This document shows positions 829 to 19,972 of a stretch of DNA of 32,896 nucleotides, piece after piece. The position numbers and the translations under genes were made by a program. The notes below the pieces were generated by a model. It worked only from the letters and a program-made list of their open reading frames with translations. It did no database searches and was not told the DNA's origin. The DNA comes from a virus, in IMG/VR virus record IMGVR_UViG_3300023180_000219, positions 1 to 32,896 of that record; one strand, written 5' to 3'. Position 1 is the stretch's first letter. Each line of letters begins with the position of its first letter.

Positions 829-1009
829 AGATCTAGATTGTTTCGAAAAAGCCTTATCACACTTCGGAACCAGAGTTGATATCATCATTGCCATGGAGGT
901 AGGTGATAAGATAGACTCTGAGACTGCTTACCAGATGATCAAGAAAGAACTGAAGGAAGTAAAGAAGATTCGCAAACAACACAAAGAAACCAATTGTGAG
1001 GAGTGTTAA
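821..1009 (+). CDS. Unknown small protein (62 aa)
   Basis: I take ATG 821, which overlaps the upstream TGA (826-828) and has GGAG at 807-810 as a ribosome site. The frame opens further upstream at 782, but that would bury the start deep in the previous gene. The protein starts MYEDLDCFEKALSHFGTRVD and ends in a lysine-rich helix (KKELKEVKKIRKQHKETNCEEC) with a two-cysteine tail. Function unknown. The last base of its stop codon is the first base of the thyX start, so it is coupled to thyX. Confidence 0.68.
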   Translation: MYEDLDCFEKALSHFGTRVDIIIAMEVGDKIDSETAYQMIKKELKEVKKIRKQHKETNCEEC

Positions 1010-1644
1010 TGACTGTTAAACTTGTATCTGTGACTCCTGATGCAGAACAAACCATGGCCTATGTGGCACGGGTGAGTAATCCTGCTAATCAAGACAACGA
1101 TAACTATGCAGGTCTTCTGCGTTACTGCATCAAACATAATCATTGGAGTGTGTTTGAACAATCTTTCATGACTCTTGAAGTTGAGACCACTAGGGCTATC
1201 GCGGCCCAGATTTTGCGTCACCGTTCGTTCACATTTCAAGAGTTTTCTCAACGGTATGCTGATAGTTCCTTACTCTCGAAGGCGATCCCTCTTCCAGAAC
1301 TCCGTCGTCAAGACACCAAGAATCGTCAGAACAGTATTGATGACTTGGATCCGTTCATGGTTCAAAGGTTAGAGATGCAGATGCAAACTCTATTTGATTC
1401 TTCCATGGCTCTGTATCAACAGATGCTTGAGTCTGGTGTTGCAAAAGAGTGTGCTCGTAATGTTCTTCCTCTGTGTACTCCTACTCGCATCTACATGAGT
1501 GGCTCTTGCCGTTCATGGATCCATTATATCAATCTTCGTTCTGCAAATGGAACTCAGAAAGAACACATGGAAGTTGCAGAATCTTGTAAGAAAGTATTTG
1601 TCGAACAGTTTCCCACCGTTGCAGAAGCCCTTGAGTGGGTCTAA
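1009..1644 (+). CDS. thyX: FAD-dependent thymidylate synthase ThyX
   Basis: ThyX makes dTMP from dUMP with methylenetetrahydrofolate and reduced FAD, supplying thymidine for phage DNA synthesis. The ThyX signature is at residues 70-82: RHRSFTFQEFSQR. The usual form is RHRxxSxNxxSxR; here Gln stands where Asn is common. A second family region lies near the C-terminus, WIHYINLRSANGTQKEH. Length (211 aa) is normal for the family. ATG 1009 is preferred over GTG 1003 because GAGGAG (998-1003) is ideally placed for it and the ATG overlaps the previous stop. The gene sits at the head of a nucleotide/replication block, as in many cyanomyophages. Confidence 0.95.
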   Translation: MTVKLVSVTPDAEQTMAYVARVSNPANQDNDNYAGLLRYCIKHNHWSVFEQSFMTLEVETTRAIAAQILRHRSFTFQEFSQRYADSSLLSKAIPLPELRRQDTKNRQNSIDDLDPFMVQRLEMQMQTLFDSSMALYQQMLESGVAKECARNVLPLCTPTRIYMSGSCRSWIHYINLRSANGTQKEHMEVAESCKKVFVEQFPTVAEALEWV

Positions 1645-1647
1645 ATA
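1640..1647 (+). promoter_or_regulatory. Possible late promoter octamer TCTAAATA
   Basis: TCTAAATA spans the thyX stop codon and lies 21 nt upstream of the ATG at 1669. The same octamer precedes structural genes at 8927 and 21843. Here it is in a non-structural operon and partly forced by the stop codon, so it may be chance. Confidence 0.25.
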
Positions 1648-1668
1648 ACATCACCCCCTTTGTTTATT

Positions 1669-1917
1669 ATGCCGACTTATCCTGTTATCAATAGAGAAAC
1701 TGGTGAACAAAAAGAAGTGACAATGAGTTTCACTGTTTGGGACCAGTGGTTAGAAGATAACCCAGGTTGGATTAGAGACTGGTCTGATCCATCCACTGCT
1801 CCCATGGCCACAGAAGTGGGGGACTGGAGGAACAAACTCGTTTCCAGAAAACCAGGCTGGAACGAGGTACTAGAACGCGCCTCTCAAGCACCTGGATCCA
1901 AAGTCAAGAAAATCTAG
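1669..1917 (+). CDS. Small FmdB-like protein without cysteines
   Basis: The protein is 82 residues starting MPTYPVINRETGEQKEV. The opening resembles FmdB-type small proteins (MPxYxY...), which normally carry a zinc ribbon, but no cysteine is present, so a metal site cannot form. After it comes a tryptophan-rich part with DQWLEDNPGWIRDW and a C-terminal SRKPGWNEVLERASQAPGS that looks helical. ATG 1669 is chosen over the upstream TTG 1660. It lies between thyX and phoH, ending 1 nt before the phoH start. The FmdB link is inference from the first residues only; the function is unknown. Confidence 0.72.
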   Translation: MPTYPVINRETGEQKEVTMSFTVWDQWLEDNPGWIRDWSDPSTAPMATEVGDWRNKLVSRKPGWNEVLERASQAPGSKVKKI

Positions 1918-1918
1918 T

Positions 1919-2677
1919 ATGGCTTCAAGAAAAAGAAAGTCTCAAGATCCAATTGGAATTGGCATGACCGCTAAACAATTGAAAAGGAAGAAACCAATTA
2001 ACACGGACTTCCTAGTTGACATTGAACCTCTTACACCAAACCAAGAGAAATTCTTCGAAGCGTATAAGAAAGGTCAACACATCTTTGCATATGGATGTGC
2101 AGGTACAGGTAAAACATTTGTTGCACTCTATAATGCACTGAAAGATGTGTTGAATGAGTACACTCCATACAAGAAGATCTACATCGTCAGATCTCTTGTG
2201 GCCACCCGTGAGATCGGGTTCCTTCCTGGAGACCATGAGGACAAGTCGGCCCTCTATCAGATTCCATACAAGAACATGGTCAAGTACATGTTCGAAATGC
2301 CTTCTGATGCAGACTTTGATATGCTCTGGGGCAACTTAAAAGCTCAAGAGACTGTATCGTTCTGGTCTACTTCATTCATTCGTGGTACAACCTTTGATGA
2401 TTGTATTCTGTTGATTGACGAAAGTCAGAACTTGAATTTTCACGAACTTGATAGTATAATTACTCGTGTAGGTGACAACTGTAAGATCATGTTCTGTGGT
2501 GACGCAGTTCAAACTGATCTGCAGAAGACCTACGAAAAAAATGGTATTCTTGACTTCATGAGAATCATCGAACAAATGGAAGAGTCATTCTGCATGGTTG
2601 AATTCCAAGTAGAAGACATCGTTCGTTCTGGCCTTGTGAAAGAGTACATCATGAAGAAAACTGCCCTAGGTCTCTAA
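1919..2677 (+). CDS. phoH: PhoH-like ATPase
   Basis: PhoH proteins are P-loop ATPases, common in marine phages; their role during infection is not settled, though RNA metabolism and phosphate stress have been proposed. Walker A is GCAGTGKT (residues 59-66). Walker B is ILLIDESQN (Asp167, Glu168), followed by a GDAVQTDL motif near residue 195. The stretch VRSLVATREIGFLPGD is typical of the family. The N-terminus is basic (MASRKRKSQD). Length is 252 aa, as expected for the phage form without an N-terminal PIN domain. Its TAA overlaps the ATG of the exonuclease gene by one base (2677). Confidence 0.95.
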   Translation: MASRKRKSQDPIGIGMTAKQLKRKKPINTDFLVDIEPLTPNQEKFFEAYKKGQHIFAYGCAGTGKTFVALYNALKDVLNEYTPYKKIYIVRSLVATREIGFLPGDHEDKSALYQIPYKNMVKYMFEMPSDADFDMLWGNLKAQETVSFWSTSFIRGTTFDDCILLIDESQNLNFHELDSIITRVGDNCKIMFCGDAVQTDLQKTYEKNGILDFMRIIEQMEESFCMVEFQVEDIVRSGLVKEYIMKKTALGL

Positions 2678-3354
2678 TGAATCGAAATTTTGTTAATCAT
2701 CTTGGTGATGTTGAACTAGAAAAGAAAGAGACTCCTGGGTGTCGTCTTTACCAACTGCCAAATGGTGACTGGGTGCCTTCGATCACCTCAGTCACCTCTT
2801 TCTATAACCGCGAAAAATTTATTAAGTGGAGACAGAGAATTGGTGAGGAGAAGGCGAATCAAATCACTAGAAAGGCTACGAGCCGCGGCACGGACTTCCA
2901 CGAGGCCGCACAGAATTATCTTGAAGGGAAACCACTTGACTGGTCGAGTCATCTTCCCGCGACGCAATTCATGTTCCAGGCTTGCAAACCAATCCTTGAT
3001 CGTATTGATAACATCCATGCTATTGAAAGGACTCTTTTTAGTGAGTACCTTGGTGTTGCTGGTCGTGTTGATTGCATTGCGGAGTTTGATGGGGAGCTTG
3101 CTGTCATTGACTTTAAAACTTCAGACTACATTAAACCAGAGGAATGGTTAGAAAACTATTTTGTTCAAGAAACCTTCTATGCATGTGCGTATTATGAAAT
3201 GACAGGAATACCTGTCAAGAAACTAATCACTATCATGCAAACTCCTAACGGAGAGAACCATGTATTTGACAAAAGAAACAAAGACGAGTATATTAAGCTA
3301 CTAGTTAAGTACATTAAGAAATTTGTTACTCATAGACTTTCCGATGCCCAATAA
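2677..3354 (+). CDS. RecB/MGME1-like PD-(D/E)XK exonuclease
   Basis: This 225-aa protein has the motif order of Cas4/RecB-type single-strand exonucleases, of which mitochondrial MGME1 is a member. His75 lies in GTDFHEAAQ, Glu117 in AIERTLFS, Asp132 in AGRVDCIAE, Asp145 and Lys147 in VIDFKTS, and Gln164 in FVQETFYACAY. All catalytic positions are present, so it is likely active. No cysteine cluster for an iron-sulphur site is evident. A role in processing DNA ends or recombination during replication is inferred from the family and from the neighbours (phoH, 33, 59, 32). It overlaps gp33 by 11 nt. Confidence 0.88.
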   Translation: MNRNFVNHLGDVELEKKETPGCRLYQLPNGDWVPSITSVTSFYNREKFIKWRQRIGEEKANQITRKATSRGTDFHEAAQNYLEGKPLDWSSHLPATQFMFQACKPILDRIDNIHAIERTLFSEYLGVAGRVDCIAEFDGELAVIDFKTSDYIKPEEWLENYFVQETFYACAYYEMTGIPVKKLITIMQTPNGENHVFDKRNKDEYIKLLVKYIKKFVTHRLSDAQ

Positions 3355-3604
3355 AGAAGTAGACAAAGCTCTTAAAGACAAGTTTCTTTGTCAAACTAAG
3401 TTCACAAAAGATATTGAAAACTTAGTCAAGAGTGATCCCGACTTCAATTATATCGATGCAATCGTTTACTATTGCGACGAGAACAAAATTGAGTTAGAAT
3501 CTGTCCCGAAGTTGATCTCCAAACCCTTGAAAGAAAAACTCAAGGCCGAAGCTATGGATCTCAATTTCTTAAAACGTACATCCCGTGCTCGATTGCCCCT
3601 GTGA
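3344..3604 (+). CDS. 33: Late transcription coactivator gp33
   Basis: In T4, gp33 binds host RNA polymerase at the beta flap and links it to the sliding clamp to activate late promoters. The 86-aa product matches T4 gp33 in its conserved central part: IENLVKSDPDFNYIDAI, YYCDENKIELESVPKLIS, and LKEKLKAEAMDLNFL. Gene order 33-59-32 is also that of T4. ATG 3344 is used; the frame is open back to a TTG at 3323, inside the exonuclease gene. The product ends SRARLPL. T4 gp33 ends in an acidic-hydrophobic clamp-binding tail (LDFL type, from memory), which is not visible here. Confidence 0.88.
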   Translation: MPNKEVDKALKDKFLCQTKFTKDIENLVKSDPDFNYIDAIVYYCDENKIELESVPKLISKPLKEKLKAEAMDLNFLKRTSRARLPL

Positions 3605-4194
3605 AAGTGACCCCATTTGAAGTCTACACAACCTATCTTGGAATGAAGAATCATTTCACCAAGGATAAGTATGATTTCATTAAATATAGTGGAAGAACCC
3701 GTGCATCTGTTGCGTCTTTTAATAAACGACGTGACAGATATTTTTTTGAGAGAATGTCCCGTAAAAAGGAAGACAGTGAAATTGTAAATTATTTCATTGC
3801 CAACTTTACTTCTCATGATGATCCAAGTAAAGTGTGGATAGGAGAGATTATCCAGAATGGAGAAACCAATTTCAAACAATGGCAAAAACGAAACCAGTCG
3901 TTGTCCTACATATTCGGAAACGAAGTTGAAGGAATCTTTACAAGAGATAATTTCGACAGTTACTTCAGCACTCAAGGCCAACATCCGAAGATCCTGAAGG
4001 CCTACATGAGGAAGGAAATTAGTCTGGAAACACTTGTCATTCTGGATAAAATCTTGGGTTTCAGATCTCGTCTTGATAAGAAACTGGATGACCCTATCTG
4101 GTGTACGGTTTCCCTCAAAATGAAGAAGTACGAACCCTTCCTAAATATCGACGTGTTCAAATTCAAAAGAATCCTAAAGGAGAAACTACTATGA
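3601..4194 (+). CDS. 59: DNA helicase loader gp59
   Basis: gp59 loads the gp41 helicase onto gp32-coated forks. The alignment to T4 gp59 is clear along its length: a KYDFIKYSGR segment, KRRDRYFFERMS, VWIGEI, LETLVILDKILGF and a C-terminal LKMKKYEPFLNID. Length is 197 aa against about 217 in T4. The start is GTG at 3601, which overlaps the gp33 stop by four bases (GTGA). The first in-frame ATG (3643) would cut off the conserved N-terminal helix, so GTG is preferred. No strong ribosome site is visible, consistent with coupling to gp33 translation. Confidence 0.92.
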   Translation: MKVTPFEVYTTYLGMKNHFTKDKYDFIKYSGRTRASVASFNKRRDRYFFERMSRKKEDSEIVNYFIANFTSHDDPSKVWIGEIIQNGETNFKQWQKRNQSLSYIFGNEVEGIFTRDNFDSYFSTQGQHPKILKAYMRKEISLETLVILDKILGFRSRLDKKLDDPIWCTVSLKMKKYEPFLNIDVFKFKRILKEKLL

Positions 4195-8967: not shown

Positions 8968-9876
8968 ATGGCATCAAACAAGTTTAAAGGTGGAAAATAT
9001 CAGATTGAAAACCTGAGAAGTCGTTTTCAAACAGTCGCCACCGACAACGACTACCAGGTATTTTTTAGTTTAGGATCTGCGGTTCTTGATGAAGCCACCG
9101 CACTTGGAATTGATGTCAGTTTTATTACTGAAGATCTTGGTCTTTATGTGAGTGATGCTGTTCTACCAGGATCAAGTTTTAATGATGTTGAAATAAGTGG
9201 AGACAGACAGGGCATCATCGAAAGAAATGCCGCTGGTAGAATATATGATGATGTTACTTTTACTTTCTATGTTGATAGAAATTATGACACTCTGAGATTC
9301 TTTGAGATTTGGCTTCAATACATCAATCCACTTTACGGTGCAACGAGTGGTGAGAACACATATGTAACCAAATTAAATTATCCAGATGATTACAAATGTG
9401 AGATGGCAATCACCAAGTTTAATAAAGATCTTGACACTGCGGCCTTTGAGGTAGACTTCAACAACTTTGTTCAAACTGCAAAACATCAACTAGGTTATAG
9501 ATTCTTCCGTGCATGGCCATATTCTTTGGCATCAACTCCCATTAGCTATGGTGGCATCAATCTTCTGAGATGTAATGTCACGTTTAGATATGACCGTTAC
9601 ATTGTAAGCGAAGTTACATATCCACGAGCTCCTGAAGTTGGTGGACCAATTAGAGTTCCTTTTGTTGGTGGTGCTGCACCAGTTGGAGAACCTCAGGGAG
9701 AGAAGAAACCGATTGATCAACCAACACAGACTCAGAATAAACCTACAGGAGTTCCAGTTTCTGCTGGTGCTGCTGGTGCAGGTGGAGTTAAATACAAACC
9801 TGCGGGTATGAGCACTGGTGAAGCAATAGCCAGTGGACAACTTTATAATGATATAAATCTTACCTCCAAATACTGA
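8968..9876 (+). CDS. 54: Baseplate tail-tube initiator gp54
   Basis: gp54 sits on gp48 and starts the tail tube. The 302-aa product has the tube-protein pattern: GLYVSDAVLPGSSFNDVEIS, then a strand and helix (FTFYVDRNYDTLRFFEIWLQ), then YKCEMAITKFNKD. After it comes RCNVTFRYDRYIVSE, a typical final strand pair. The core is about 215 residues. The last 85 residues form a proline, glycine and alanine-rich tail (GVPVSAGAAGAGG) that is probably flexible. It could instead be called gp19-like, since gp54 and gp19 share the fold; position beside gp26 favours gp54. The gene starts at ATG 8968, downstream of the late octamer at 8927. Confidence 0.8.
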   Translation: MASNKFKGGKYQIENLRSRFQTVATDNDYQVFFSLGSAVLDEATALGIDVSFITEDLGLYVSDAVLPGSSFNDVEISGDRQGIIERNAAGRIYDDVTFTFYVDRNYDTLRFFEIWLQYINPLYGATSGENTYVTKLNYPDDYKCEMAITKFNKDLDTAAFEVDFNNFVQTAKHQLGYRFFRAWPYSLASTPISYGGINLLRCNVTFRYDRYIVSEVTYPRAPEVGGPIRVPFVGGAAPVGEPQGEKKPIDQPTQTQNKPTGVPVSAGAAGAGGVKYKPAGMSTGEAIASGQLYNDINLTSKY

Positions 9877-9905: not shown

Positions 9906-10613
9906 ATGCCCTTACCAACTATTGCAACTCCTACGTTTGAACTGACTTTACCATCAAACGGAAAGAAAATTAAGTACAGACCATTCCTCGTAAAAGAAGA
10001 GAAGGTTCTCATTCTTGCATTGGAAGGTGGAGAAACCACAGAAATAACAAGATCTATTAAAGACGTTCTAAAGGCCTGTATTCTGACAAGGGGCGTTAAG
10101 GTAGATCAATTGCCAACTTTTGATATTGAGTATTTGTTCCTCAATATCCGTGGTAAGTCTGTTGGTGAAACTGTAAATGTGGTTGTAACTTGTCCTGATG
10201 ATGGCACGACTCAAGTCCCTGTGACGATTGGTGTCGATGAGATTGAAGTTATCAAAAGTGATGATCACACCACCGACATTGATGTTGATGGCAAATATAA
10301 GTTGAGAATGAAGTATCCTTCATTGGAACAGTTTATCAATAATAACTTTAACTTCACCGATGAAGAACAAGATGTTTTCAAGTTGGTAGCTTCATGTGTT
10401 GATCTTGTCTATGATGATGAGACTGTATATGATGATTTTACCGAGAAAGAAATGATCAAGTTTCTGGAACAGTTCAATTCAAAACAGTTCCAAGAAATCG
10501 AAATGTTCTTTGAAACAATGCCAAAACTGTCACATGTAATCACTGTGACCAATCCTAACACTGGTGTTGAAAATTCCGTTAAACTGGAGGGTCTCTCAAG
10601 TTTTTTCGGTTGA
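9906..10613 (+). CDS. 26: Baseplate hub subunit gp26
   Basis: The 235-aa protein carries the T4 gp26-type baseplate signature: a beta N-terminus ending IKYRPFLVKEEKVLILALEG, then ITRSIKDVLKACILT and FDIEYLFLNIRGKSVGE. It continues with an acidic, helical C-terminal half that includes FKLVASCVDLVYDDE and EMIKFLEQFNSKQF. Length is close to T4 gp26 (208 aa). It follows an exact late promoter and is the first gene of the hub block 26-51-hub-27, the T4 order. Its stop lies just before the start of the next small gene. Confidence 0.9.
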   Translation: MPLPTIATPTFELTLPSNGKKIKYRPFLVKEEKVLILALEGGETTEITRSIKDVLKACILTRGVKVDQLPTFDIEYLFLNIRGKSVGETVNVVVTCPDDGTTQVPVTIGVDEIEVIKSDDHTTDIDVDGKYKLRMKYPSLEQFINNNFNFTDEEQDVFKLVASCVDLVYDDETVYDDFTEKEMIKFLEQFNSKQFQEIEMFFETMPKLSHVITVTNPNTGVENSVKLEGLSSFFG

Positions 10614-10615
10614 GT

Positions 10616-10798
10616 ATGGCTTACATGTCAGCTGAGTCATACTATAGTTTGAACTTTTCGTTGATGCAGTACCATAAATACTCTTTGACGGAAATTGAAA
10701 ACATGATGCCATTCGAGAGAGACATTTATGTGAATCTCTTGAAGAACTACCTTGAATCAGAAAAACTGAAACAACAACAGGAACACGGTCTGGGTTAA
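10616..10798 (+). CDS. 51: Small hub assembly protein, gp51-like
   Basis: The 60-aa product begins MAYMSAESYYSLNFSLMQYH and continues YSLTEIENMMPFERDIYVNL. The rest (LLKNYLESEKLKQQQEHG) is helical. T4 has gene 51, a hub assembly catalyst, directly after 26, and small proteins with this PFERxIYVxLL pattern are called gp51 in related cyanophages as I remember it. It is far shorter than T4 gp51 (249 aa), so the assignment depends on position and one motif. ATG 10616 is chosen; a TTG at 10610 is in frame. Its stop overlaps the next ATG (10798). Confidence 0.6.
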   Translation: MAYMSAESYYSLNFSLMQYHKYSLTEIENMMPFERDIYVNLLKNYLESEKLKQQQEHGLG

Positions 10799-12621
10799 TG
10801 GCAGAACCAAACAACCAATATGAAGCAATAGGCCCCAACCCATTTGGTTTAGATCCTCGTCTCAGCGACGCGGCTTGGGCTGCTGCTCTGGCGGGTACTT
10901 TTCTAACTCCTATTCCTGGTGATGAGGCTCTTGTTGCTGGTGCTGGTGGTAGGGCTCTATTGAGTAGAAGTCTTGGTGGTAGAATATTTGGCGCGGGTGC
11001 TCGACTTGGAAAGGGTTTATTTGGTGCTGCTGGAAGGGCATTTAATTTTGGAAGAAATATATCCTTTGCTTCAGACCTTTTAGGTTTGGGTGATAAAGAT
11101 AAAAAGACAGAAGATAATCAAGAATCAAAAAGACAAGCACAACAATTTATTCGCAGTTCCTCCCTTGGTGCGGGACAAGAGGCCTACGATGATTCTCCAG
11201 ATGTAATTCAAGGAGAAAGTGAGGCTGTTTCTCCATATTTACCTCCAAGTGTTTCTGCACCAGAACTGATTCCTCCAGAGCCACCACCTGTAACTGGAGA
11301 TCCAACAACTGATTATATTGTAAGACAATTAGACGCAATCAATTCAAACATATCTGCGATTGCTGGTGCTCTCACATCTTCTATAATTGCCGATGAAGAA
11401 TATCGACAAGCCGTAATTGCACAACAGAAAGGAGCTGTGGCGGCGAGAGGTCAAACAAGATCTAGGGAGAGAACTGAAAGAAGAAAAGGAATGATGCGAT
11501 ATGTGAGAGAACAAGCTGCTAGTAGATCTGTCGGTGCTGCAAAGGGTGTATTTTCTGCAGCTGCTCCTGGTCTTGGTGCTTTTGGGTTACTTTCTGCTAT
11601 TAATGCATTAGATGGTGCAAAAGATTGGTTTGGTGAACAATTTGATGGTTTAAAAGACTGGTGGAAAAATGTATGGGATAAAATTACGGGATTTGACTAT
11701 GGCAATCTTATAGACCTTGACTGGTGGAAAAATAAGACTGATGAATTAGCTCCTGACTGGATGAAAGATTTGTGGAGTAATGTAACTGGTTTTGACTATT
11801 CCCAACTTCTTCAACCTGATTGGTGGAAGAATAGTATTGGATCTGCCTTTGAATGGATGCAACAAGGCATCGGTAGTATGATGGGTGGATCACAAGAAGA
11901 AAAACTAAAGACAAAAATCAGACAGGCTGAAAGTGGTTCTGATTATGGAACTTTGTTTAGAAAATATCTGGAAGGATTTTCTAGAGGTGATGAAAAGGCC
12001 GATCAGATGTCCATTGGGGACGTTGTTAAACTCCAAAAAGATTACCTCGCATATCAAGAATCAATAGGTATTCCAGCAAATAAAAGGAGTGCTGCTGTAG
12101 GTGCATATCAGATGCTTTATCCAGATGTTGCTGCTAAAGCACTTGGGATTCCACTCACTGCAAAGTTTGATAAAGCCATCCAAGATAGACTTGCTGATTA
12201 TTATCTAAACATTGCTGGGTATAAAGACTTTAAAGCTGGAAAAATAACTGCGGAACAGTTCAATGATAGATTAGCTGGTCAGTTTGCTGCTCTTAAAAAA
12301 ACAAGTGGTAAAGGTGCCTATGATGAAGATGGACTCAATAAGGCTTATGATAGTGTTCTTGATATATTGAAAAGTTCCGATTCTGGATTTGTAATGCCCG
12401 ATCTAGGTCTTAGTGAAGCTGCTTCTGGTGTGATCAATCAAATACAACAGTTTGGTTCTGGTGTTTTTGAGATGTTAGAACCTATTATTATTGATAATTC
12501 TAAGAAACAATCAAATCTAAACACATCACAACTTAGTGGTGGAAGTGGTTTAATTGAGACTCTTGATCCATTTAATCCCAATTCTACACTTTATTCCCCT
12601 CTTCTTTTTGGTGGTAACTAA
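10798..12621 (+). CDS. Tail hub / tape-measure-like protein with lysozyme-like domain
   Basis: This 607-aa protein has several parts. Residues 1-90 are rich in glycine and alanine with hydrophobic stretches. Residues 100-180 are proline-rich and probably disordered. Residues 180-260 are helical and basic (RGQTRSRERTERRKGMM). Residues 275-350 hold two copies of a 33-residue unit containing W(D/S)xxTGFDY and PDWWKN or LDWWKN. Residues 370-510 resemble a lysozyme-type domain: IRQAESGSDYGTLF with a likely catalytic Glu near 377, then SAAVGAYQM near 430. In T4 the tape-measure protein gp29 is coded in this hub block, and gp5 carries the lysozyme. I infer a combined hub or tape role with peptidoglycan cleavage. 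It overlaps the M23 gene by one base. Confidence 0.72.
   Translation: MAEPNNQYEAIGPNPFGLDPRLSDAAWAAALAGTFLTPIPGDEALVAGAGGRALLSRSLGGRIFGAGARLGKGLFGAAGRAFNFGRNISFASDLLGLGDKDKKTEDNQESKRQAQQFIRSSSLGAGQEAYDDSPDVIQGESEAVSPYLPPSVSAPELIPPEPPPVTGDPTTDYIVRQLDAINSNISAIAGALTSSIIADEEYRQAVIAQQKGAVAARGQTRSRERTERRKGMMRYVREQAASRSVGAAKGVFSAAAPGLGAFGLLSAINALDGAKDWFGEQFDGLKDWWKNVWDKITGFDYGNLIDLDWWKNKTDELAPDWMKDLWSNVTGFDYSQLLQPDWWKNSIGSAFEWMQQGIGSMMGGSQEEKLKTKIRQAESGSDYGTLFRKYLEGFSRGDEKADQMSIGDVVKLQKDYLAYQESIGIPANKRSAAVGAYQMLYPDVAAKALGIPLTAKFDKAIQDRLADYYLNIAGYKDFKAGKITAEQFNDRLAGQFAALKKTSGKGAYDEDGLNKAYDSVLDILKSSDSGFVMPDLGLSEAASGVINQIQQFGSGVFEMLEPIIIDNSKKQSNLNTSQLSGGSGLIETLDPFNPNSTLYSPLLFGGN
11674..11850 (+). repeat. 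Two-copy 33-residue tryptophan-rich repeat
   Basis: Within the hub protein, WDKITGFDY starts at 11674 and WSNVTGFDY at 11773, exactly 99 nt apart. Each is followed by a DWWKN motif. The DNA has diverged while the protein pattern is kept, so the duplication is old and functional. Confidence 0.7.
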
Positions 12622-13880
12622 TGGACATCAATCAGATTTTTGCTTCAAATAGAGTAAAACAATCTCTTGGTAGTCTTACAAATACTACTCAAAGTCTTGT
12701 TAGGATCATTCGTAAGGATGCACAAAAAAGAAAAACTGCATATGGAAGAATAACTGATTTAAATAAACGATTATCGAAACGAATATCTTATGTTTCTCCA
12801 TCTGCTGCTGTAGGAACCATTGACGATACTCCACAGAGATCTTTTTCTTTTAGGCCTCCATCTGGAACTGGTATGTCATTGGCTGCATACGGTGGTCTTT
12901 CTGCTATAGATTTTTTAAATAAACTTTTCAATAAAAGTGAAGAAGAATTGAAAAAAGAGGATCCATCCTATGATCCTACCAAGATAAATCTTCCAGGCCC
13001 AGAAAATGTAAATCCTCAACCAACACAAACAACACCATTTACACCAGAACAGGAACAAGAATATGTTGATAGTCTTCCTCCTGGTGTGAGAGAAGACATG
13101 GAGAAAGGTGGTAAGACACAACCACCATCAATATTGGAATCTATTTGGGGTAGTCTGACAAATCTTATTGGTGGTATGTTTGGTGGAATGAAGCCAGGAT
13201 CACCAATACCATCTCAATTTAGTCCTTTGACTGGTGTTTCTGGAAGTGTTAGAGTTGATGGTAAGAGAAATGCCATGTTGTCAACGGCATACAGTCCATT
13301 TTCTCCCGCTGATGTGAAAGAAAAGGACATACAAATTATTTCTGGAAAGGGATATAGAGAAAGTACCGATTCTGTTCACAAGGGGTTTGATGTCGCTGCA
13401 CCAAATGGAACTCCACTATACGCATATCTTCCTGGAAAAATTACAAGAAAGGGTACAGATAGAGGTTATGGAAACTTTGTAGAGTGGAAAGATGATCAAT
13501 ATGGTCAGACCCACTTTTTTGCACACATGCAACATCCAACCTCCCTGAATGTTGGAGATACATTTAAACAAGGCCAAACTCTTGGATTGGTTGGTGCAAC
13601 TGGTAGAGTTGATGGACCACATCTGCACTGGGAAATCGGGAAACAGGGGTCGGAGATAGATCCTATGAAGTGGGTTAATTCTCACCCAATCAAGGAGGAA
13701 CCAGTAGAACCAACGAAAACATCATCCACGGTTAATAATCAAGCCAGAAAAATTAGTCAGGTTAATAAGATAGATAGTAGTAGTGTGGCCGTTGCGCCTG
13801 TTTCATCAAAGACTGACTATAAAGATATTTCCACATCAACTGTAAAGACTCAAATTCAACCAATAATCATCTATAGCTAA
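12621..13880 (+). CDS. Virion M23 family peptidase
   Basis: M23 (LytM-type) zinc endopeptidases cut peptide cross-bridges in peptidoglycan. The domain spans about residues 235-355 of 419. It has HKGFD (His253, Asp257), a FFAHMQHP segment, and HLHWE (His334, His336), which together give the metal ligands and catalytic His. The sequences GTPLYAYLPGKI and GQTLGLVGATGRV are typical family strands. The N-terminal 200 residues are basic at first, then proline-rich. The C-terminal 60 are Ser/Thr/Val-rich and probably a linker or docking strand. Location in the hub block between the lysozyme-like protein and gp27 suggests it rides in the tail and acts at DNA entry rather than host lysis; that is inference. 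Confidence 0.88.
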   Translation: MDINQIFASNRVKQSLGSLTNTTQSLVRIIRKDAQKRKTAYGRITDLNKRLSKRISYVSPSAAVGTIDDTPQRSFSFRPPSGTGMSLAAYGGLSAIDFLNKLFNKSEEELKKEDPSYDPTKINLPGPENVNPQPTQTTPFTPEQEQEYVDSLPPGVREDMEKGGKTQPPSILESIWGSLTNLIGGMFGGMKPGSPIPSQFSPLTGVSGSVRVDGKRNAMLSTAYSPFSPADVKEKDIQIISGKGYRESTDSVHKGFDVAAPNGTPLYAYLPGKITRKGTDRGYGNFVEWKDDQYGQTHFFAHMQHPTSLNVGDTFKQGQTLGLVGATGRVDGPHLHWEIGKQGSEIDPMKWVNSHPIKEEPVEPTKTSSTVNNQARKISQVNKIDSSSVAVAPVSSKTDYKDISTSTVKTQIQPIIIYS

Positions 13881-15172
13881 TGAGTTATATAAAGAACGTA
13901 AAAATTTCTAATCTTGTTATAACTTCTCTGGATGGTTCGAAGACCGCAGAGGTAGGTAGTGGAATTGATAGTGTCATACAATTTGATTATTTTGAGAGTA
14001 TTTTTAATCCATCGATAGAAGCGGTACTTACAATCGTAAGCAGAGATAAACTGACATCGAGACTGCCTATAATTGGGACTGAAAAAGTAACCATAACGAT
14101 AACACATGACACTGGTGAACAGGACTTTACTTTCTATGTGCAGAGTGTAAATGAACCTCTGTCGGACTCAATGAGAAGTATTATTGTATTGAGTTTGACC
14201 ACAGAAGATAATATCAAACAAGAGTTAGAACAATATAGACTTACATCTAGATACGAACCCACAGTAGCTATTGATGCCCATGTCAAAAATATCATGAATC
14301 TCTTGGGTACTGAGAAAGAAGTTGAGATAGAAAAGACTGCAAATTCTTATGGATTTTTTGGAAACTATTGGAGACCATTCAGAGGTATCTATTGGTTGGC
14401 TAAAAGATCTTTATCAAAAGAAGGACAAGATAGATCTGGATTTTTATTCTGGGAAACAAAGTCAAAATACAGATTTAAGAGTATTGACACCATCGCGGCT
14501 GATGCTGAAAAACTTTCGAAAGAAGGTAAAATTATAAATTATCAACAAAGAGATTATGTTTCCGATGCCAATGATGATAGTGATAACTTTGTGATTCACT
14601 CCCCATTTGTTGAGTATAATCAAAACATTTTATATCAACTTAGAAAGGCCGCATACGGAGACAATACAAAGTTTTTTAATCCTCATACTATGCCTCAGTC
14701 TTTCCAACCAGAAGATAAAACTGTCTATTCAGAGTCTTTTGGTAAGTCAGATCACTTCGGTACAAGTGATTTAACACAGAGAGAATTTGGAATTATGAAC
14801 TCACCCAGTTCCATCGATGTTCAACCATTTGTTAGTGGAACAATGAATAAAGATGGTGCTGTCAATAATGAAGAAGACGATGATCCACACAAGTGGATGG
14901 GTCAGTCCAACATTAAATATCAGTCAATTATGTCTCAGTCTCAGAGAGTGACTATTCCAATGAACTTGACTCTTGAGGCTGGAGACCCGATTGTTCTTAA
15001 TTTAATTTTGTCAAACGAGGGCCTTGACGATCACGGAAGTGGGGTGTATCTTATAAAGGACCTACGTCATACTATCAAATTTGGTGAGTCTGGTGTGCAA
15101 TGCCTTACAAATCTGCGTTGTATTCGAGATAATTATGGAAATGTTGGAGTAAATCCAAAAATAATTTATTAA
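13880..15172 (+). CDS. 27: Baseplate hub protein gp27-like
   Basis: gp27 forms the trimeric ring that joins the tail tube to the gp5 spike. This 430-aa protein (T4: 391) begins with a strand-rich domain (VIQFDYFESIFNPSIEAVL), typical of the barrel domains in gp27. It continues with EKVTITITHDTGEQDFTFYV and a helical middle (YWLAKRSLSKEGQDRSGFLF, then WETKSKYRF). Its C-terminus has a second beta domain (SQRVTIPMNLTLEAGDPIVL). This matches the gp27 / VgrG N-terminal architecture. Start ATG 13880 overlaps the upstream TAA by one base. Its neighbours, the M23 peptidase and the gp5-like protein, fit the hub role. Confidence 0.82.
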   Translation: MSYIKNVKISNLVITSLDGSKTAEVGSGIDSVIQFDYFESIFNPSIEAVLTIVSRDKLTSRLPIIGTEKVTITITHDTGEQDFTFYVQSVNEPLSDSMRSIIVLSLTTEDNIKQELEQYRLTSRYEPTVAIDAHVKNIMNLLGTEKEVEIEKTANSYGFFGNYWRPFRGIYWLAKRSLSKEGQDRSGFLFWETKSKYRFKSIDTIAADAEKLSKEGKIINYQQRDYVSDANDDSDNFVIHSPFVEYNQNILYQLRKAAYGDNTKFFNPHTMPQSFQPEDKTVYSESFGKSDHFGTSDLTQREFGIMNSPSSIDVQPFVSGTMNKDGAVNNEEDDDPHKWMGQSNIKYQSIMSQSQRVTIPMNLTLEAGDPIVLNLILSNEGLDDHGSGVYLIKDLRHTIKFGESGVQCLTNLRCIRDNYGNVGVNPKIIY

Positions 15173-15194
15173 ATAGTTAAAAGGAGTAAAACAA

Positions 15195-15407
15195 ATGGAA
15201 AACATCGAAGCACACATTGAAGCAGACAAAAAGATTCTAGACGATCCACAAATCTCACCTCAAGCACGCAGACATACCGAAGAAGAACTTGCTGCGCTGA
15301 AAGCATACGCAGAGAATCATCCAGAAGATCATCATGATCCTACTTCTCTGGAACTTTATTGTGATGCCAATCCAAGCGCTCCAGAGTGTTTGGTCTATGA
15401 TGACTGA
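15195..15407 (+). CDS. cp12: CP12-like Calvin-cycle regulator
   Basis: CP12 inactivates GAPDH and phosphoribulokinase by joining them in a complex, shutting the Calvin cycle. The 70-aa product ends SLELYCDANPSAPECLVYDD, matching the CP12 C-terminal pattern LExYCxxNPxxxECxxY. Cys56 and Cys65 have eight residues between them, the spacing of the GAPDH-binding cysteine loop in CP12. The N-terminal cysteine pair of host CP12 is absent, and only RRHTEEELAALKAY hints at the core helix. AAGGAG (15181-15186) is a strong ribosome site 8 nt before ATG 15195, and an ATTAAATA element at 15169-15176 could give it its own late promoter. It is known that T4-like cyanophages carry cp12; the effect on the host here is inferred. 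Confidence 0.82.
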   Translation: MENIEAHIEADKKILDDPQISPQARRHTEEELAALKAYAENHPEDHHDPTSLELYCDANPSAPECLVYDD

Positions 15408-15413
15408 TAAATA
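15406..15413 (+). promoter_or_regulatory. Late promoter GATAAATA for the gp5-like gene
   Basis: GATAAATA overlaps the CP12 stop codon and ends 23 nt before the ATG at 15437. It keeps ATAAATA of the T4 late consensus, and the same octamer recurs at 28205. Confidence 0.6.
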
Positions 15414-15436
15414 ATCTGTAAAGAATACTTGTTTGA

Positions 15437-17638
15437 ATGAAAGAGGTATTATCACGCCCAGGTAGTATGGGATCTGATGGTCTCAGATGGTGGATTGGCC
15501 AAGTTGCGCCAAGATCTGCCTGGGCTGGTGCTGGACTTCTTATCAACGATAAAAGTTCTGGTAGATCCGATAATAAACCAGAACAAGAAATTTATTACAA
15601 CCGAGTAAAGGTAAAGGTTGTAGGTTTTCATGATAAAATTGCAGATCCTAATGATCTGCCTTGGGCTCATGTGGTGAACAGCCCAAACGTATCGTCTGGA
15701 TATGGATTTAAAGACTCTACACACTATCTTGAAGGTGGGGAAAGTGTATTTGGTTTTTGGTTGGATGGAGAAGATGAACAAAAACCAGTAATTCTTGGAG
15801 TCTTTTATAGAAATAGTATAGCAGAAGATCTCTCACAACCACTGAAAGGATCTGCTGCAACACCAACAAACGGTGCGGCTGTTCAAAATAATCTGGATCA
15901 AAAACCGACTGGTGGGACTGCTTCGACTAATGTAGCAACAGGAGAAACCACACCAGAGACAACTACTTCATATAATCCAAAATATAATCTTTTTACTGGT
16001 ATAAGTGAAGATAAGAAAGTTGTAAGACCACATATTTCAAATGAAGCTAGTTCTCAAAAGGGAACTTCTGATGCTGCAGAAGCTCATCACACTTTTCTTG
16101 GTGTAAAAACTAGTAGACCCACATGTAAAAGAGATAATAGTATTGCTGAGATAACTGGTCTTCTTGGAGATTTCTCTGAGTTCTTGCTTACTGCTCAAGG
16201 ATATGCAAATTTCTATGTGAATTTGATAACCAACACATTAATAAATTTAGATGAGGAAATTAAACTCATCGCAAAGAGCATTACAAAGATAATGACCTCT
16301 CTTTATACTGCCATTCGTGATGAAATTTTTGCAGAGATTGCAAAGAAAATACAGGAATTTATAAATGAAATTCTTCCAGAGGAAGTAAAACCACTTTTTG
16401 GTGATAGTATTAAAGGAACTGTAGATACAATTTATTGTATTTTTGAAAATCTGATTGAAGCCATACTCAACATAGTCGTTGACCTTCTTTTATCCCTTGT
16501 TGGTCAATTTGTCAATGGTCTTGTTTGTGCTGCAGAACAACTTACTGGTGCTCTGTTAAACAGCCTGCTCGATGCCATGGAACAGGCCATAAGTCCTATA
16601 CTTCAAAGTTTGAATGAGACTTTAGGTGGTGCTCTTGGAAGTGTAAATCAGATAATCAATCAAGCTTTGGAAGCAGTTGGAATCGTATACAGTTTCATTG
16701 GATGTGACAAGTTTAAGTGCCCACTTCCTTCTAGATTTGATAATGCATATGGACCCACTCAGGCCCAGAAGGACAGCGCACAATCTATATTCTCTTCTAT
16801 TTCTATTCTCAACATTCAAACCTCCACAGATGAAGATGGTAACTCAGTAACTGTTGGTGATTTGTTAAGTGATGCGGAGGACAACGCTGCTAGTATATTT
16901 GGTCCTCAGTCTCCAGAAGATCAAGCTCTTGCAGCTCAGGTCAATGCACTCGCTGGCGGATGTAATCCAAATATATTGGTGTGTGGTCCACCAACTATTG
17001 AGATATTTGGTGGTGAAGGTTTTGGTGGTGCGGCCAATGCAGTGGTAAATGAACTTGGCCAGGTGATTGGTGCGGACATTGTTGAAGCTGGTTTTGGTTA
17101 CAGTTCTGAGTCACCTCCATATGTCACAGTTAAGGACGCTTGTAGTGAAGGTAAGGGTGCAAAGGCAACAGCAATCATTGATGATGAATCTGGTGAAATT
17201 ATTAAAATCTTAATTGATAATCCTGGATATAACTATCCACAGAAACCAGGTAAAATTATAACGTCTACAGGAATTATCCCTGTCACTCAAGATCCACCAG
17301 AAGAAGCCATTATTGATAAAATTGCTCAGATTGATGATGTCATCGTTACCAATCCTGGATATGGATATAATCCAGGCGATACAATTCAAATCGATGGTGT
17401 TGATTTACCTGATGGTCTTCCAATCTTGGAACCAGTCATCGTTGGTGGAAAGATTGTAGATGTTAAGATTCAAAGTCCTGGATATGGATTCACAGAGATT
17501 CCACCACTCACAATAAATAGTGACACTGGAATCGGTGCAGATTTCTCTGTGGTTCTTAAATTCGTTAATGTTGATGAATTGATTGAACCAATCGATCCAG
17601 CTAAGATTATCCAAGTAATAAATTGCGTAGGTAAATAA
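15437..17638 (+). CDS. 5: gp5-like baseplate hub protein (OB fold, no lysozyme)
   Basis: Residues 1-130 resemble the OB-fold of T4 gp5: RWWIGQVAP, a strand YYNRVKVKVVGFH, then LPWAHVVNSP and ESVFGFWLDGEDEQKPVILG. T4 gp5 has the same pattern ending in GHFLD...GIVLGTYGG. No lysozyme domain follows. Residues 130-230 are Thr/Asn-rich linker. Residues 270-420 form long hydrophobic helices (IVVDLLLSLVGQFVNGLV) that could be membrane-active. Residues 525-720 contain repeats with PGY(G/N)Y or PGYGF separated by isoleucine and valine strands. At 733 aa it is longer than T4 gp5 (575). The spike is coded by the next gene, whose start overlaps this stop. Confidence 0.78.
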   Translation: MKEVLSRPGSMGSDGLRWWIGQVAPRSAWAGAGLLINDKSSGRSDNKPEQEIYYNRVKVKVVGFHDKIADPNDLPWAHVVNSPNVSSGYGFKDSTHYLEGGESVFGFWLDGEDEQKPVILGVFYRNSIAEDLSQPLKGSAATPTNGAAVQNNLDQKPTGGTASTNVATGETTPETTTSYNPKYNLFTGISEDKKVVRPHISNEASSQKGTSDAAEAHHTFLGVKTSRPTCKRDNSIAEITGLLGDFSEFLLTAQGYANFYVNLITNTLINLDEEIKLIAKSITKIMTSLYTAIRDEIFAEIAKKIQEFINEILPEEVKPLFGDSIKGTVDTIYCIFENLIEAILNIVVDLLLSLVGQFVNGLVCAAEQLTGALLNSLLDAMEQAISPILQSLNETLGGALGSVNQIINQALEAVGIVYSFIGCDKFKCPLPSRFDNAYGPTQAQKDSAQSIFSSISILNIQTSTDEDGNSVTVGDLLSDAEDNAASIFGPQSPEDQALAAQVNALAGGCNPNILVCGPPTIEIFGGEGFGGAANAVVNELGQVIGADIVEAGFGYSSESPPYVTVKDACSEGKGAKATAIIDDESGEIIKILIDNPGYNYPQKPGKIITSTGIIPVTQDPPEEAIIDKIAQIDDVIVTNPGYGYNPGDTIQIDGVDLPDGLPILEPVIVGGKIVDVKIQSPGYGFTEIPPLTINSDTGIGADFSVVLKFVNVDELIEPIDPAKIIQVINCVGK

Positions 17639-18228
17639 TGCCAAACTCACAGTCAGGTGATTTTGATATTGACACTAGGAGACATTTCCGATTTGAAGGC
17701 GGACAAAATTCTCCATATGGAAAGGTTAGTTATCGCGTATTAACTAATCTTGGCGCTGGCCATGGTTGGTATCAGAATGGTACAAGTGAAGATCACCAAA
17801 TGGTTGCAACTGGCAGATCTGTCGAATCACTTGGTCATAAAGTAAAGAAGTCCAAGACTAATGAATCAGATCCTTTATTACCCGCAAAATTAATTCGTGC
17901 AAAACACGGTGATATTATTTTGGAGGCAGTAGATGGTGATATTATCCTAAAAGGTGATAACATCATAATGTATGCGGACGGTATCCGAAATACTGGGGAT
18001 GGCGACATTCAGATGTATGCCAATAAGGCCGTAAGTATTGAAGGATCTGATGTTAGAGTTAGTAGTGCTAACTTGAGACTTATTGGTAAGAAAGACTTTT
18101 CTCTTATCGGAAAAGTATATGGCAATATAACTGCTGGAGTTCTAAATGCATCCGCTTCTTCCGATTTCGGTGCATCTACTCTACTTGGTAAGATGAAAGG
18201 TATTGCTGAGAGTTTGGGGGCGATCTAA
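17638..18228 (+). CDS. Beta-helical spike protein (gp5 C-terminal-like)
   Basis: The 196-aa protein starts with a polar region (MPNSQSGDFDIDTRRHFRFE) followed by GHGWYQNGTSEDHQM. From about residue 85 it shows short repeating strands typical of triple-stranded beta-helix needles: HGDIILEAVDGDIILKGDN, then IMYADGIRNTGDGDIQMYAN, then KAVSIEGSDVRVSSANLRLI. T4 gp5 and VgrG carry such a helix as their C-terminal spike. Here it is a separate gene directly after the OB-fold protein, with one-base overlap, so it most likely forms the membrane-piercing needle. No PAAR motif was recognised at its end. Confidence 0.72.
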   Translation: MPNSQSGDFDIDTRRHFRFEGGQNSPYGKVSYRVLTNLGAGHGWYQNGTSEDHQMVATGRSVESLGHKVKKSKTNESDPLLPAKLIRAKHGDIILEAVDGDIILKGDNIIMYADGIRNTGDGDIQMYANKAVSIEGSDVRVSSANLRLIGKKDFSLIGKVYGNITAGVLNASASSDFGASTLLGKMKGIAESLGAI

Positions 18229-19163
18229 TGGCATTTTTTCCTGTAATGTATGGGAACCGACTTGTTGTTGGTTCTGAAGCTTCCGCTGGTGTCTCTAAGG
18301 TTCAAACACAACCTTTTGATGGATCTGTTCTTGGTGGATTTACTGTTCTCAATGGTCCTGTTCAAGTCGGTGTTGCTCCACTAGCACCAGTTCCTCTTGG
18401 AACTCTTCACATTGGACCCAACCCACCTACATCTGGCCCAACTTCTTTAGCCTCTTTACACATTGTTCATCCTTCAATCGGGATGAACGTTATTTCTCCG
18501 ATTGCTGCTAATTTTTATGGAGCAGTCAATACTTATGCCATTCAACAGGCATATGGATCCGACTTTTCCTTTGGATTAAAACAGACCCTTGGAACGTTTA
18601 ACAAGGTTGGAAAAGGTGTAGAGGTTGGAGGAACTACAAAGGCCGAACCAGGAATCACTGAGGCTGCACCAAATAGAACCAGTGCTGGCAACATGACAAT
18701 TGCTGGTAACTTAACTGTTACTGGCACAATTAGCGGTGTAGTCAATCCCCAGGCCTGGAAAGGATTTGACATCAAACATCCTAAGAAACCAAATAGACGT
18801 ATTCGACATATTTGCGTAGAGGGCCCAGAGGCAGCAATCTATGTCAGAGGAACACTCAAAGGATCTAACGTTATCGAACTTCCAGAATACTGGGATGGTT
18901 TGATTGACATTGAATCTATTTCTGTCCACCTTACTCCTATCGGAAACTATCAAGAGTTGTATGTTGACAAGATTGAGTGGGGTAAGAAAGTGATTGTCAA
19001 GAATAATCAAGGGTCTGCAATTAATTGTTACTACAAGGTTGAGGCCGCTAGAATCGATGGTGAACCATTGATCGTCGAATATGAAGGAGAAACTGCTGCT
19101 GACTATCCTGGAGATCCAACGCAATATTCAATCTCTGGTCATGATTATGGGAGGAAAGACTGA
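18228..19163 (+). CDS. Virion structural protein with a C-terminal fibre-type domain
   Basis: The 311-aa protein has a proline, glycine and valine-rich first half (VAPLAPVPLGTLHIGPNPP) and a short beta stretch (NMTIAGNLTVTGTISG) typical of fibre shafts. Residues 182-300 form a distinct domain: DIKHPKKPNRRIRHICVEGP, then YVRGTLKGSNVIELPEYWDG, then SVHLTPIGNYQELYVDKI. This domain (CVEGPE, ELPEYW, LTPxGxxQ, VEYEG) recurs at the ends of tail or fibre proteins in marine phages; its function is not known to me. The gene lies between the spike and another structural gene in a one-base-overlap operon. A baseplate-attached fibre or adaptor is likely. Confidence 0.65.
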   Translation: MAFFPVMYGNRLVVGSEASAGVSKVQTQPFDGSVLGGFTVLNGPVQVGVAPLAPVPLGTLHIGPNPPTSGPTSLASLHIVHPSIGMNVISPIAANFYGAVNTYAIQQAYGSDFSFGLKQTLGTFNKVGKGVEVGGTTKAEPGITEAAPNRTSAGNMTIAGNLTVTGTISGVVNPQAWKGFDIKHPKKPNRRIRHICVEGPEAAIYVRGTLKGSNVIELPEYWDGLIDIESISVHLTPIGNYQELYVDKIEWGKKVIVKNNQGSAINCYYKVEAARIDGEPLIVEYEGETAADYPGDPTQYSISGHDYGRKD

Positions 19164-19972
19164 TGCCATTAGATAACAATGCAAAAACTGAGTTTGTCAT
19201 TGCAGATATTAATGCAAAGATAAAACAACAGAACGATATTATTGGATTCAATACAACATCATCATTACAATCTAGACTCGATTATGTTGATGAGATTGTT
19301 GCGGCTTTTGATCCTGCAATCAAAGGAATAGATAACAAAATCGTTTCCATTGGCCAATCTATCAATCAACTTAAAGATGAAATCATTGTTTTGATTTCTG
19401 ATGCCGTTGGTGTATCTACAGTGAACACTTGTGGTATTGCAAGCACTGGTCCTGGTGGTGATTGTTTTGTTAGTGCTGATGGTGGTCTTGATGGTGGATG
19501 GGCTGGTGGTATTTCCACATGTCTGTTGGGATATACTCCCGAGTATTACGACACAGTTACTTCTAGGATTTGGGCATTTTCGAGTACATCATCGAATCCC
19601 TTTGTCTCATCTACTACAATTTTGAGTAGTGCTAGTAATACCTTTGGTGCTGGAATTGGAACGTTTTTGGTTGTTAATCAAAACAATAGTTCTTATACTG
19701 CTGGTTATCGGGTAACCTTGAAGAGTACTCCAAGTTGCTCTGCCGTTCAGACTCAAATTGATGCAAAAGATGCAGAGATTGCAACTCTAAGAAGTGAAAT
19801 TGGAAAGTATCTTGGTGTTGTGAATACTATTCGAGAACAAAGATGGAAGTCTCAACTAGAGAAATGGGGTTTGGTCAGGGCTCAGAAAGAGGCTGAAGAG
19901 GATAAGGAAAAACTGGTTGGTGTTCTGACCGCCTTCACCGATTCAACGTACACGAGCCTGTTCCTCAAGTGA
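19163..19972 (+). CDS. Structural protein with coiled coils flanking a beta domain
   Basis: The 269-aa protein begins with a heptad-rich helix (KTEFVIADINAKIKQQNDII) and SIGQSINQLKDEIIVL. The middle part is Gly/Ser/Thr-rich with several cysteines (CGIASTGPGGDCF). From about residue 195 a long charged helix follows (DAKDAEIATLRSEIGKYL, then RAQKEAEEDKEKL). Such coiled-coil ends around a small globular part fit a trimeric tail or fibre component. ATG 19163 overlaps the previous TGA. It is the last gene of the hub operon before the tRNA region. I do not recognise a named family. Confidence 0.6.
   Translation: MPLDNNAKTEFVIADINAKIKQQNDIIGFNTTSSLQSRLDYVDEIVAAFDPAIKGIDNKIVSIGQSINQLKDEIIVLISDAVGVSTVNTCGIASTGPGGDCFVSADGGLDGGWAGGISTCLLGYTPEYYDTVTSRIWAFSSTSSNPFVSSTTILSSASNTFGAGIGTFLVVNQNNSSYTAGYRVTLKSTPSCSAVQTQIDAKDAEIATLRSEIGKYLGVVNTIREQRWKSQLEKWGLVRAQKEAEEDKEKLVGVLTAFTDSTYTSLFLK

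Follow-up and report, generated by a model that had tools for sequence, protein, structure and literature searches.

This study concerns the baseplate hub region of a 32,896-base virus record (IMG/VR record IMGVR_UViG_3300023180_000219; the whole stretch is called the window below), which its gene content and gene order place in the Kyanoviridae, the T4-like cyanophages. Ranked by summed match, S-CAM9 and S-PRM1 have the phage DNA nearest to it, at about 66% identity across half of the query. The genes run in the order gp54-like (302 amino acids, aa), gp26 (235), gp51 (62), X (607), Y (419), gp27-like (430), CP12 (70) and gp5 (733), followed by genes for proteins of 196, 311 and 269 aa. One-base overlaps join gp51 to X, X to Y and Y to the gp27-like gene, which fits the expectation for a translationally coupled operon. 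The initial annotation had described a cell-puncturing device divided over four neighbouring genes. All the open reading frames (ORFs) that it named exist at their place, but the structural genes concerned are five (those for the proteins of 607, 419, 430, 733 and 196 aa), with CP12 in addition. We consider it probable, at about 0.72, that the region encodes a T4-like cyanophage puncturing tip in which the functions of T4 gp5 are spread over separate chains, together with a slot, the gp51-gp27 interval that holds X and Y, in which wall hydrolases are exchanged.

PHROG assigns the 733-aa protein to the gp5 family (phrog_1922, 1e-115). A profile of 22 gp5 sequences searched against the PDB matched T4 gp5 (1k28) at residues 6-99 only (E 1.9e-7), and in hhalign comparisons the family scored 96.7% against the T4 OB domain (residues 5-101), 0.1% against the lysozyme domain and 0.0% against the beta-helix gp5C. 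The OB fold had been placed in this protein from the outset, and we find it at about aa 15-130. Matches of the same profile to influenza HA2 were taken as chance coiled-coil similarity. When the T4 gp5 lysozyme domain is followed through the family it matches slot proteins only (X of S-CRM01, Y of Sf-CH8 and of ACG-2014f) and never gp5. Kyanovirus gp5 proteins are widely labelled 'baseplate hub subunit and tail lysozyme' in public records, and we found no lysozyme domain in gp5. The place of the T4 lysozyme is occupied by a hydrophobic alpha-helical domain (aa ~230-420) that is found in the kyanovirus gp5 proteins read and is missing in the gp5 of HTVC008M (350 aa, OB and beta-helix only). The C-terminus ends in glycine-rich G-x-G-Y repeats (aa ~506-733), which also match further virion proteins of cyanophages in PHROGs (annotated as virion structural, baseplate wedge and head closure). 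For the 430-aa gp27-like protein, homologues were found in 443 phage records. Its profile reached a probability of only 1.5% against T4 gp27, though this was the best of 8 T4 proteins, and gave no match in the PDB.

The lysozyme-like domain had been proposed for the 607-aa X, and structure prediction had been set beforehand as the way to check it. In the AlphaFold2 model, X consists of a low-confidence N-terminus, a long helix (171-242), a domain at residues 366-525 that folds as a lysozyme, and a low-confidence C-terminus. The predicted local distance difference test score (pLDDT) is mostly 90-97 over residues 366-500 and falls to 71-85 by residue 525. A Pfam search of X gave no lysozyme match. 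However, residues 340-549 align to other slot proteins with one invariant glutamate and an A-x-G-x-Y-Q motif, and the profile of the domain matches lambda lysozyme in the PDB (1am7/3d3d, E ~4e-6). The glutamate, Glu378, is present in 10 of 10 diverse aligned sequences and is a candidate catalytic residue. The best PDB match of the slot lysozyme profile was 11mn_A, a '66 kDa protein' (E 1.5e-8). Foldseek alone returned nothing at E <0.001 with the 607-aa model, so that the structural support comes from VIA realignment together with the sequence profile. VIA put a baseplate chain of phage A-1(L) first (8kea_A, residues 85-261, Z 10.9), followed by lambda lysozyme (Z 10.8 for 3d3d over 132 residues, and 10.1), with Slt-type transglycosylases at about 6. 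As the lambda and 8kea_A scores stand well above those of the Slt type, we read the domain as lambda-R/GH104-like rather than as the GH24-type lysozyme of T4 gp5. Residues 366-525 are thus confidently predicted to adopt a lambda-R-type (GH104-like) lysozyme/transglycosylase fold, with the corresponding activity as a prediction. No relationship to the lysozyme of T4 gp5 was detected for the domain (hhalign 0.2%), so relocation of the T4 domain into another gene is rejected as its origin in the window phage.

The M23 peptidase had also been assigned to the 607-aa protein. Pfam places it instead in the separate 419-aa Y (PF01551, E 2e-24, residues 252-348), where the zinc ligands are present as HKGFD (HxxxD) and HLH (HxH). 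Y is on this sequence evidence a predicted peptide cutter. The idea of two activities in the hub thus stands insofar as glycan- and peptide-cutting domains lie beside the hub genes, but they reside in two slot proteins and not in one.

Table 1. Genes and predicted domains of the hub region of the window.
Feature	Position	Strand	Support
gp54-like, 302-aa tail-tube-initiator-like protein	8968..9876	+	Pfam Phage_TTP_2 5.6e-11
gp26, baseplate hub/assembly protein	9906..10613	+	PF12322 9.6e-71; T4 gp26 94.1%
gp51-like short hub assembly protein	10610..10798	+	aligns to T4 gp51 residues 211-245, E 0.002
X, 607-aa slot protein	10798..12621	+	
Predicted GH104-like lysozyme/transglycosylase domain, X aa 366-525	11893..12372	+	invariant Glu378; lambda lysozyme matches
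Y, 419-aa slot protein	12621..13880	+	
M23 peptidase domain, Y aa 252-348	13374..13664	+	PF01551 2e-24; HKGFD at 253, HLH at 334
gp27-like 430-aa hub protein	13880..15172	+	phrog_350 tail protein 5.9e-81
CP12	15195..15407	+	PF02672 1.1e-12
gp5, 733 aa	15437..17638	+	OB fold, alpha-helical domain, C-terminal repeats
Hydrophobic alpha-helical domain of gp5	16124-16696		
G-x-G-Y repeats of gp5	16952-17635		
Probable central spike, 196 aa, beta-helix-like aa ~84-160	17638..18228	+	conserved repeats; gene position
311-aa conserved protein	18228-19163		phrog_17490, function-unknown family
269-aa conserved protein	19163-19972		

In 26 cyanobacterial Kyanoviridae, including the window, we read the slot and scored its domains with a local GH104-like profile besides Pfam and PHROG. 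Two genes occupy it, except that S-RSM4, S-CAM4, ACG-2014e and S-CRM01 have a single fused gene. At least one wall hydrolase was detected in 25 of the 26 phages, and both a glycan cutter and a peptide or amide cutter in 12. Because the phages are related, the counts do not represent independent events, and the profiles have probably missed some domains. The pairs vary from phage to phage. GH104 goes with M23 in the window, S-SRM01, DSL-LC02 and Sf-FS3, with Amidase_5/CHAP in S-CAM7, and with an S-CAM7-type amidase region, recognised by homology, in ACG-2014e. Phage_lysozyme is paired with M23 in Sf-CH8 and ACG-2014f, SLT with VanY in DSL-LC03, and Glucosaminidase with M15 in S-RIM2 and with VanY in S-SCSM1, while S-ShM2 has Phage_lysozyme2, C39 and Phage_lysozyme. 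Amidase_2 and SleB in Syn33 both fall below the Pfam cut-offs and are left outside the 12. The remaining phages have one detected class each (S-CAM1 by a sub-threshold match), apart from S-8S55, whose slot gave no hydrolase by any of the three methods. With GH19 added, these make about a dozen unrelated families, and the GH104-like profile itself hits 12 phages, in X or Y only. The X of Syn33 is annotated as two pieces (124 and 761 aa; 858-3646) that match consecutive parts of the X of S-RIM2 and S-RIM8, possibly through disruption, a frameshift or a sequencing error.

Judged from genes and profiles, the dispersed arrangement is general in the Kyanoviridae and comes with an exchangeable enzyme slot. 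The repeated swaps of unrelated wall hydrolases suggest that the tip is built of modules and fitted to the wall of the host. The proposed connection with the cyanobacterial wall is plausible given the 25 of 26 cyanobacterial members with a hydrolase. The slot proteins of HTVC008M (SAR11 host) and Melnitz-2 (Methylophilales host) gave no Pfam hydrolase at E 0.05, which agrees with such a connection, but a contrast with two phages of other hosts is not a test.

A further role for the slot pair would extend this picture and does not oppose it. X and Y together could be the tail tape measure, replacing T4 gp28/gp29 and carrying the wall hydrolases as cargo domains. The pair would then be related proteins, duplicates in several lineages, that fill the tube, set tail length and open the wall via exchangeable enzymes. 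The T4 operon 51-27-28-29-48-54 encodes the tape measure gp29, with gp28-gp29 directly after gp27, and X and Y lie in the hub operon too. No gene in the hub region of the cyanobacterial records read is annotated as a tape measure, the HTVC008M equivalent is annotated as a putative one, and X has weak tape-measure matches in PHROG. The lengths of X and Y are correlated in 20 phages with two slot genes (r 0.93; 0.87 when S-CREM2 is left out), and the longer slot protein tracks published tail length (r 0.94, n=5; 0.92 without S-CREM2), although this measure was picked after the data were seen and summed length gives r 0.87, or 0.46 without S-CREM2. Tail lengths (nm) were taken from PMC10665884, PMC9602691 and PMC8557907, with sheath length for S-SRM01 and the midpoint of 140-170 for S-CRM01. 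In four of the five phages the tail measures 0.15-0.18 nm per residue of the longer protein, and in S-CREM2 0.27 nm. The length data are few and uneven, and kyanovirus lengths are not independent because of shared ancestry.

Relatedness of X and Y is found in part of the family. Their N-terminal regions match in profile-profile comparisons in three lineages (99.3, 94.4 and 95.3%, with column-shuffled controls at or below 1.5%), and in the lineage of the window the value is 0.2%. An iterated hidden Markov model that put a single N-terminal domain in nearly all X and Y and in the HTVC008M protein was not trusted, as the profile-profile comparison supports three lineages only. Against T4 gp29 the N-terminal profile reached a probability of 1.1%, which is no homology, and the match to the HTVC008M protein was just 23%. 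The window X offers little confident helix, a single long one of about 72 residues among low-confidence stretches, and in the four phages named above the slot is one fused gene. S-CREM2 virions also hold other large proteins that could be the tape measure. We therefore regard the tape-measure role as possible but unlikely. If true, slot proteins of 1565 and 1456 aa would account for the 418-nm tail of S-CREM2.

It may also be asked whether X and Y are tail parts at all, or lysis endolysins or capsid cargo merely encoded in the hub operon. Many slot proteins sit in PHROG families labelled endolysin, and virion proteomes of two relatives have been read in the latter sense. In S-CREM2 virions the slot ORFs 208/209 gave 73/71 unique peptides and gp27 gave 25, and the authors suggested that the enzymes are encapsulated in the capsid (PMC10665884). 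In S-SCSM1 virion preparations the slot ORFs 213/214 were both detected, and a structural role was judged unlikely (PMC9602691). Capsid cargo or carry-over was the possibility raised by the authors of the two proteomes. The S-CREM2 counts are high and above gp27, though they are not copy numbers since ORFs 208/209 are far longer proteins. On the other hand, every cyanobacterial member read encodes the slot proteins between gp51 and gp27, and in the window these genes overlap their neighbours by one base. X and Y are also large and made of several domains, which sets them apart from compact endolysins, and in three lineages they have N-terminal regions in common. From this gene position we infer that a tail role is likelier than capsid cargo, and an origin of X and Y in lysis or cargo appears improbable to us.

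The beta-helix had been assigned to the separate 196-aa protein, and here the repeats and a profile link to kyanovirus spikes agree with the assignment while direct matches to known spikes are weak. The protein has conserved repeats (GDI.L.A..GDIILKG.NI..A) over residues ~84-160. Its PDB matches are weak, and several of them are to C-terminal parts of contractile spikes (7aef, 8gra VgrG, 7b5h All3320 and 6j0m Pvc8; E 0.04-2). The AlphaFold2 monomer is poor (pLDDT 50), which is uninformative because a spike would be an intertwined trimer. Foldseek gave no match with this model, and a simple test for strand alternation gave a null result (p 0.48). The stronger case is positional. T4 gp5C directly matches a separate gene at the same place in S-N03, S-CREM2, S-CRM01 and MED4-213, and the match falls inside gp5 in HTVC008M, S-RIM8 and Syn33. 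By profile, the 196-aa type scores 95% against the ACG-2014f-type proteins at the equivalent place and 8% against T4 gp5C, and the HTVC008M gp5 C-terminus has a 95% match to the S-CREM2-type separate spike gene. Of 27 phages, 22 have the spike on a gene of its own and 5 have it fused to gp5 (S-RIM8, S-RIM2, Syn33, S-ShM2 and HTVC008M, of which S-RIM2 and S-ShM2 were assigned by a shared C-terminal profile with no direct single-sequence match). As gp5C matches occur both in separate genes and inside gp5, fission or fusion of gp5 and spike has occurred within the family. The virion proteome of S-CREM2 includes ORF212, the positional equivalent of the 196-aa protein (PMC10665884). That the 196-aa protein forms a beta-helix spike is probable, not proven, and another baseplate or fibre protein, which the poor monomer, the empty Foldseek search and the null alternation test would allow, is quite improbable given this shared gene position, the match to the ACG-2014f type and the beta-helix borne by gp5 itself in phages that lack a separate spike gene.

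Taken together, the proposed puncturing tip would work as follows. The gp5 protein keeps the OB hub, with the helical domain in the place of the T4 lysozyme, and would form the hub with gp27, while the 196-aa protein would most likely be the trimeric spike below gp5 that pierces the outer membrane. X and Y, presumably co-transcribed, may ride in the tail, level with the hub or above it, and be released with the tube on contraction. X could then nick glycan strands as a lambda-R-like transglycosylase and Y could cut peptide cross-links, opening the peptidoglycan for the tube. Across the family the slot serves as a site at which wall hydrolases of unrelated families are exchanged. The analysis here shows the domain content, the gene order, their conservation and the exchange of enzymes, and the presence in virions is known from publications on two relatives. 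The earlier picture of T4 gp5 split over genes is retained insofar as its parts are dispersed over neighbours, but the lysozyme is of another family and the enzymes sit in a two-protein slot. Several points weigh against this reading. The tip of the window phage is known here only from genes and predictions, the 430-aa protein is named gp27 from its position and PHROG family, and the spike assignment depends on weak matches. Only 12 of the 26 phages have both activities by profile, and the others may have undetected domains or a single activity. The authors of both proteomes also considered that the slot enzymes might be capsid cargo or carry-over.

Among ocean viruses, T4-like cyanophages rank with the most abundant, and their gp5 is routinely annotated as a tail lysozyme where we find none. 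The enzymes sit instead in two neighbours in the gp5 region that are usually annotated as endolysin or hypothetical. The slot is thus a place to seek enzymes of entry that suit the wall chemistry of the host, and it gives an alternative reading of the two virion proteomes as well as a candidate for the missing tape measure.

Among the neighbouring genes, the gp54-like family profile matched T4 gp54 with a probability of 63.5% (E 7e-5), far the best among 8 T4 hub-region proteins. CP12 is a host-derived regulator of the Calvin cycle and carbon metabolism; it is encoded within the hub operon, between the gp27-like gene and gp5, at an equivalent position in most relatives read, and is not a part of the device. 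This position is consistent with the report that cp12 is often near gp5 (PMC3037559). Most relatives that have the 196-aa type of spike encode the 311- and 269-aa proteins after it, and the second of these has no family. No PAAR tip protein was found in the window, though S-CREM2, S-CRM01 and S-N03 each have one.

Compared with known systems, the window shares with the T4 gp5-gp27 hub (1k28, 5iv5) the gp5 OB fold, the hub/spike plan and the nearby relatives of gp26, gp51 and gp54. It differs in that gp5 has a helical domain and repeats with no lysozyme detected, the probable spike has its own gene, the enzymes are in two extra proteins, and homology to gp27 is undetectable by sequence. The hub of the Anabaena myophage A-1(L) has lysozyme, endoglucanase and peptidase domains, the last two active on Anabaena cells (PMC10966104), so the idea of a two-enzyme hub is itself not new. 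Like the window it is a cyanophage hub with wall-cutting domains, and its chain 8kea_A (8kea) is the best match of the lysozyme-like domain. However, A-1(L) is not T4-like, its enzymes lie within the hub protein gp15, and its spike has an OB and a beta-strand domain in one chain. Lambda R (GH104 lytic transglycosylase; 1am7, 3d3d) shares the fold (Z 10.1-10.8), the G-x-Y-Q and Q-D motifs and the conserved glutamate, but it is a free enzyme of late lysis, whereas the window domain is within a virion-type protein. Tape measures of the mycobacteriophage TM4 type (PMC1796659) are likewise long proteins of the tail that include a wall-hydrolase domain, in one protein rather than in two slot proteins for which this role is only a candidate. 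Among the other Kyanoviridae, S-CAM9, S-SSM7, S-SCSM1, S-CREM2 and DSL-LC02 share the gene order and the slot with the window while the hydrolase families in the slot differ.

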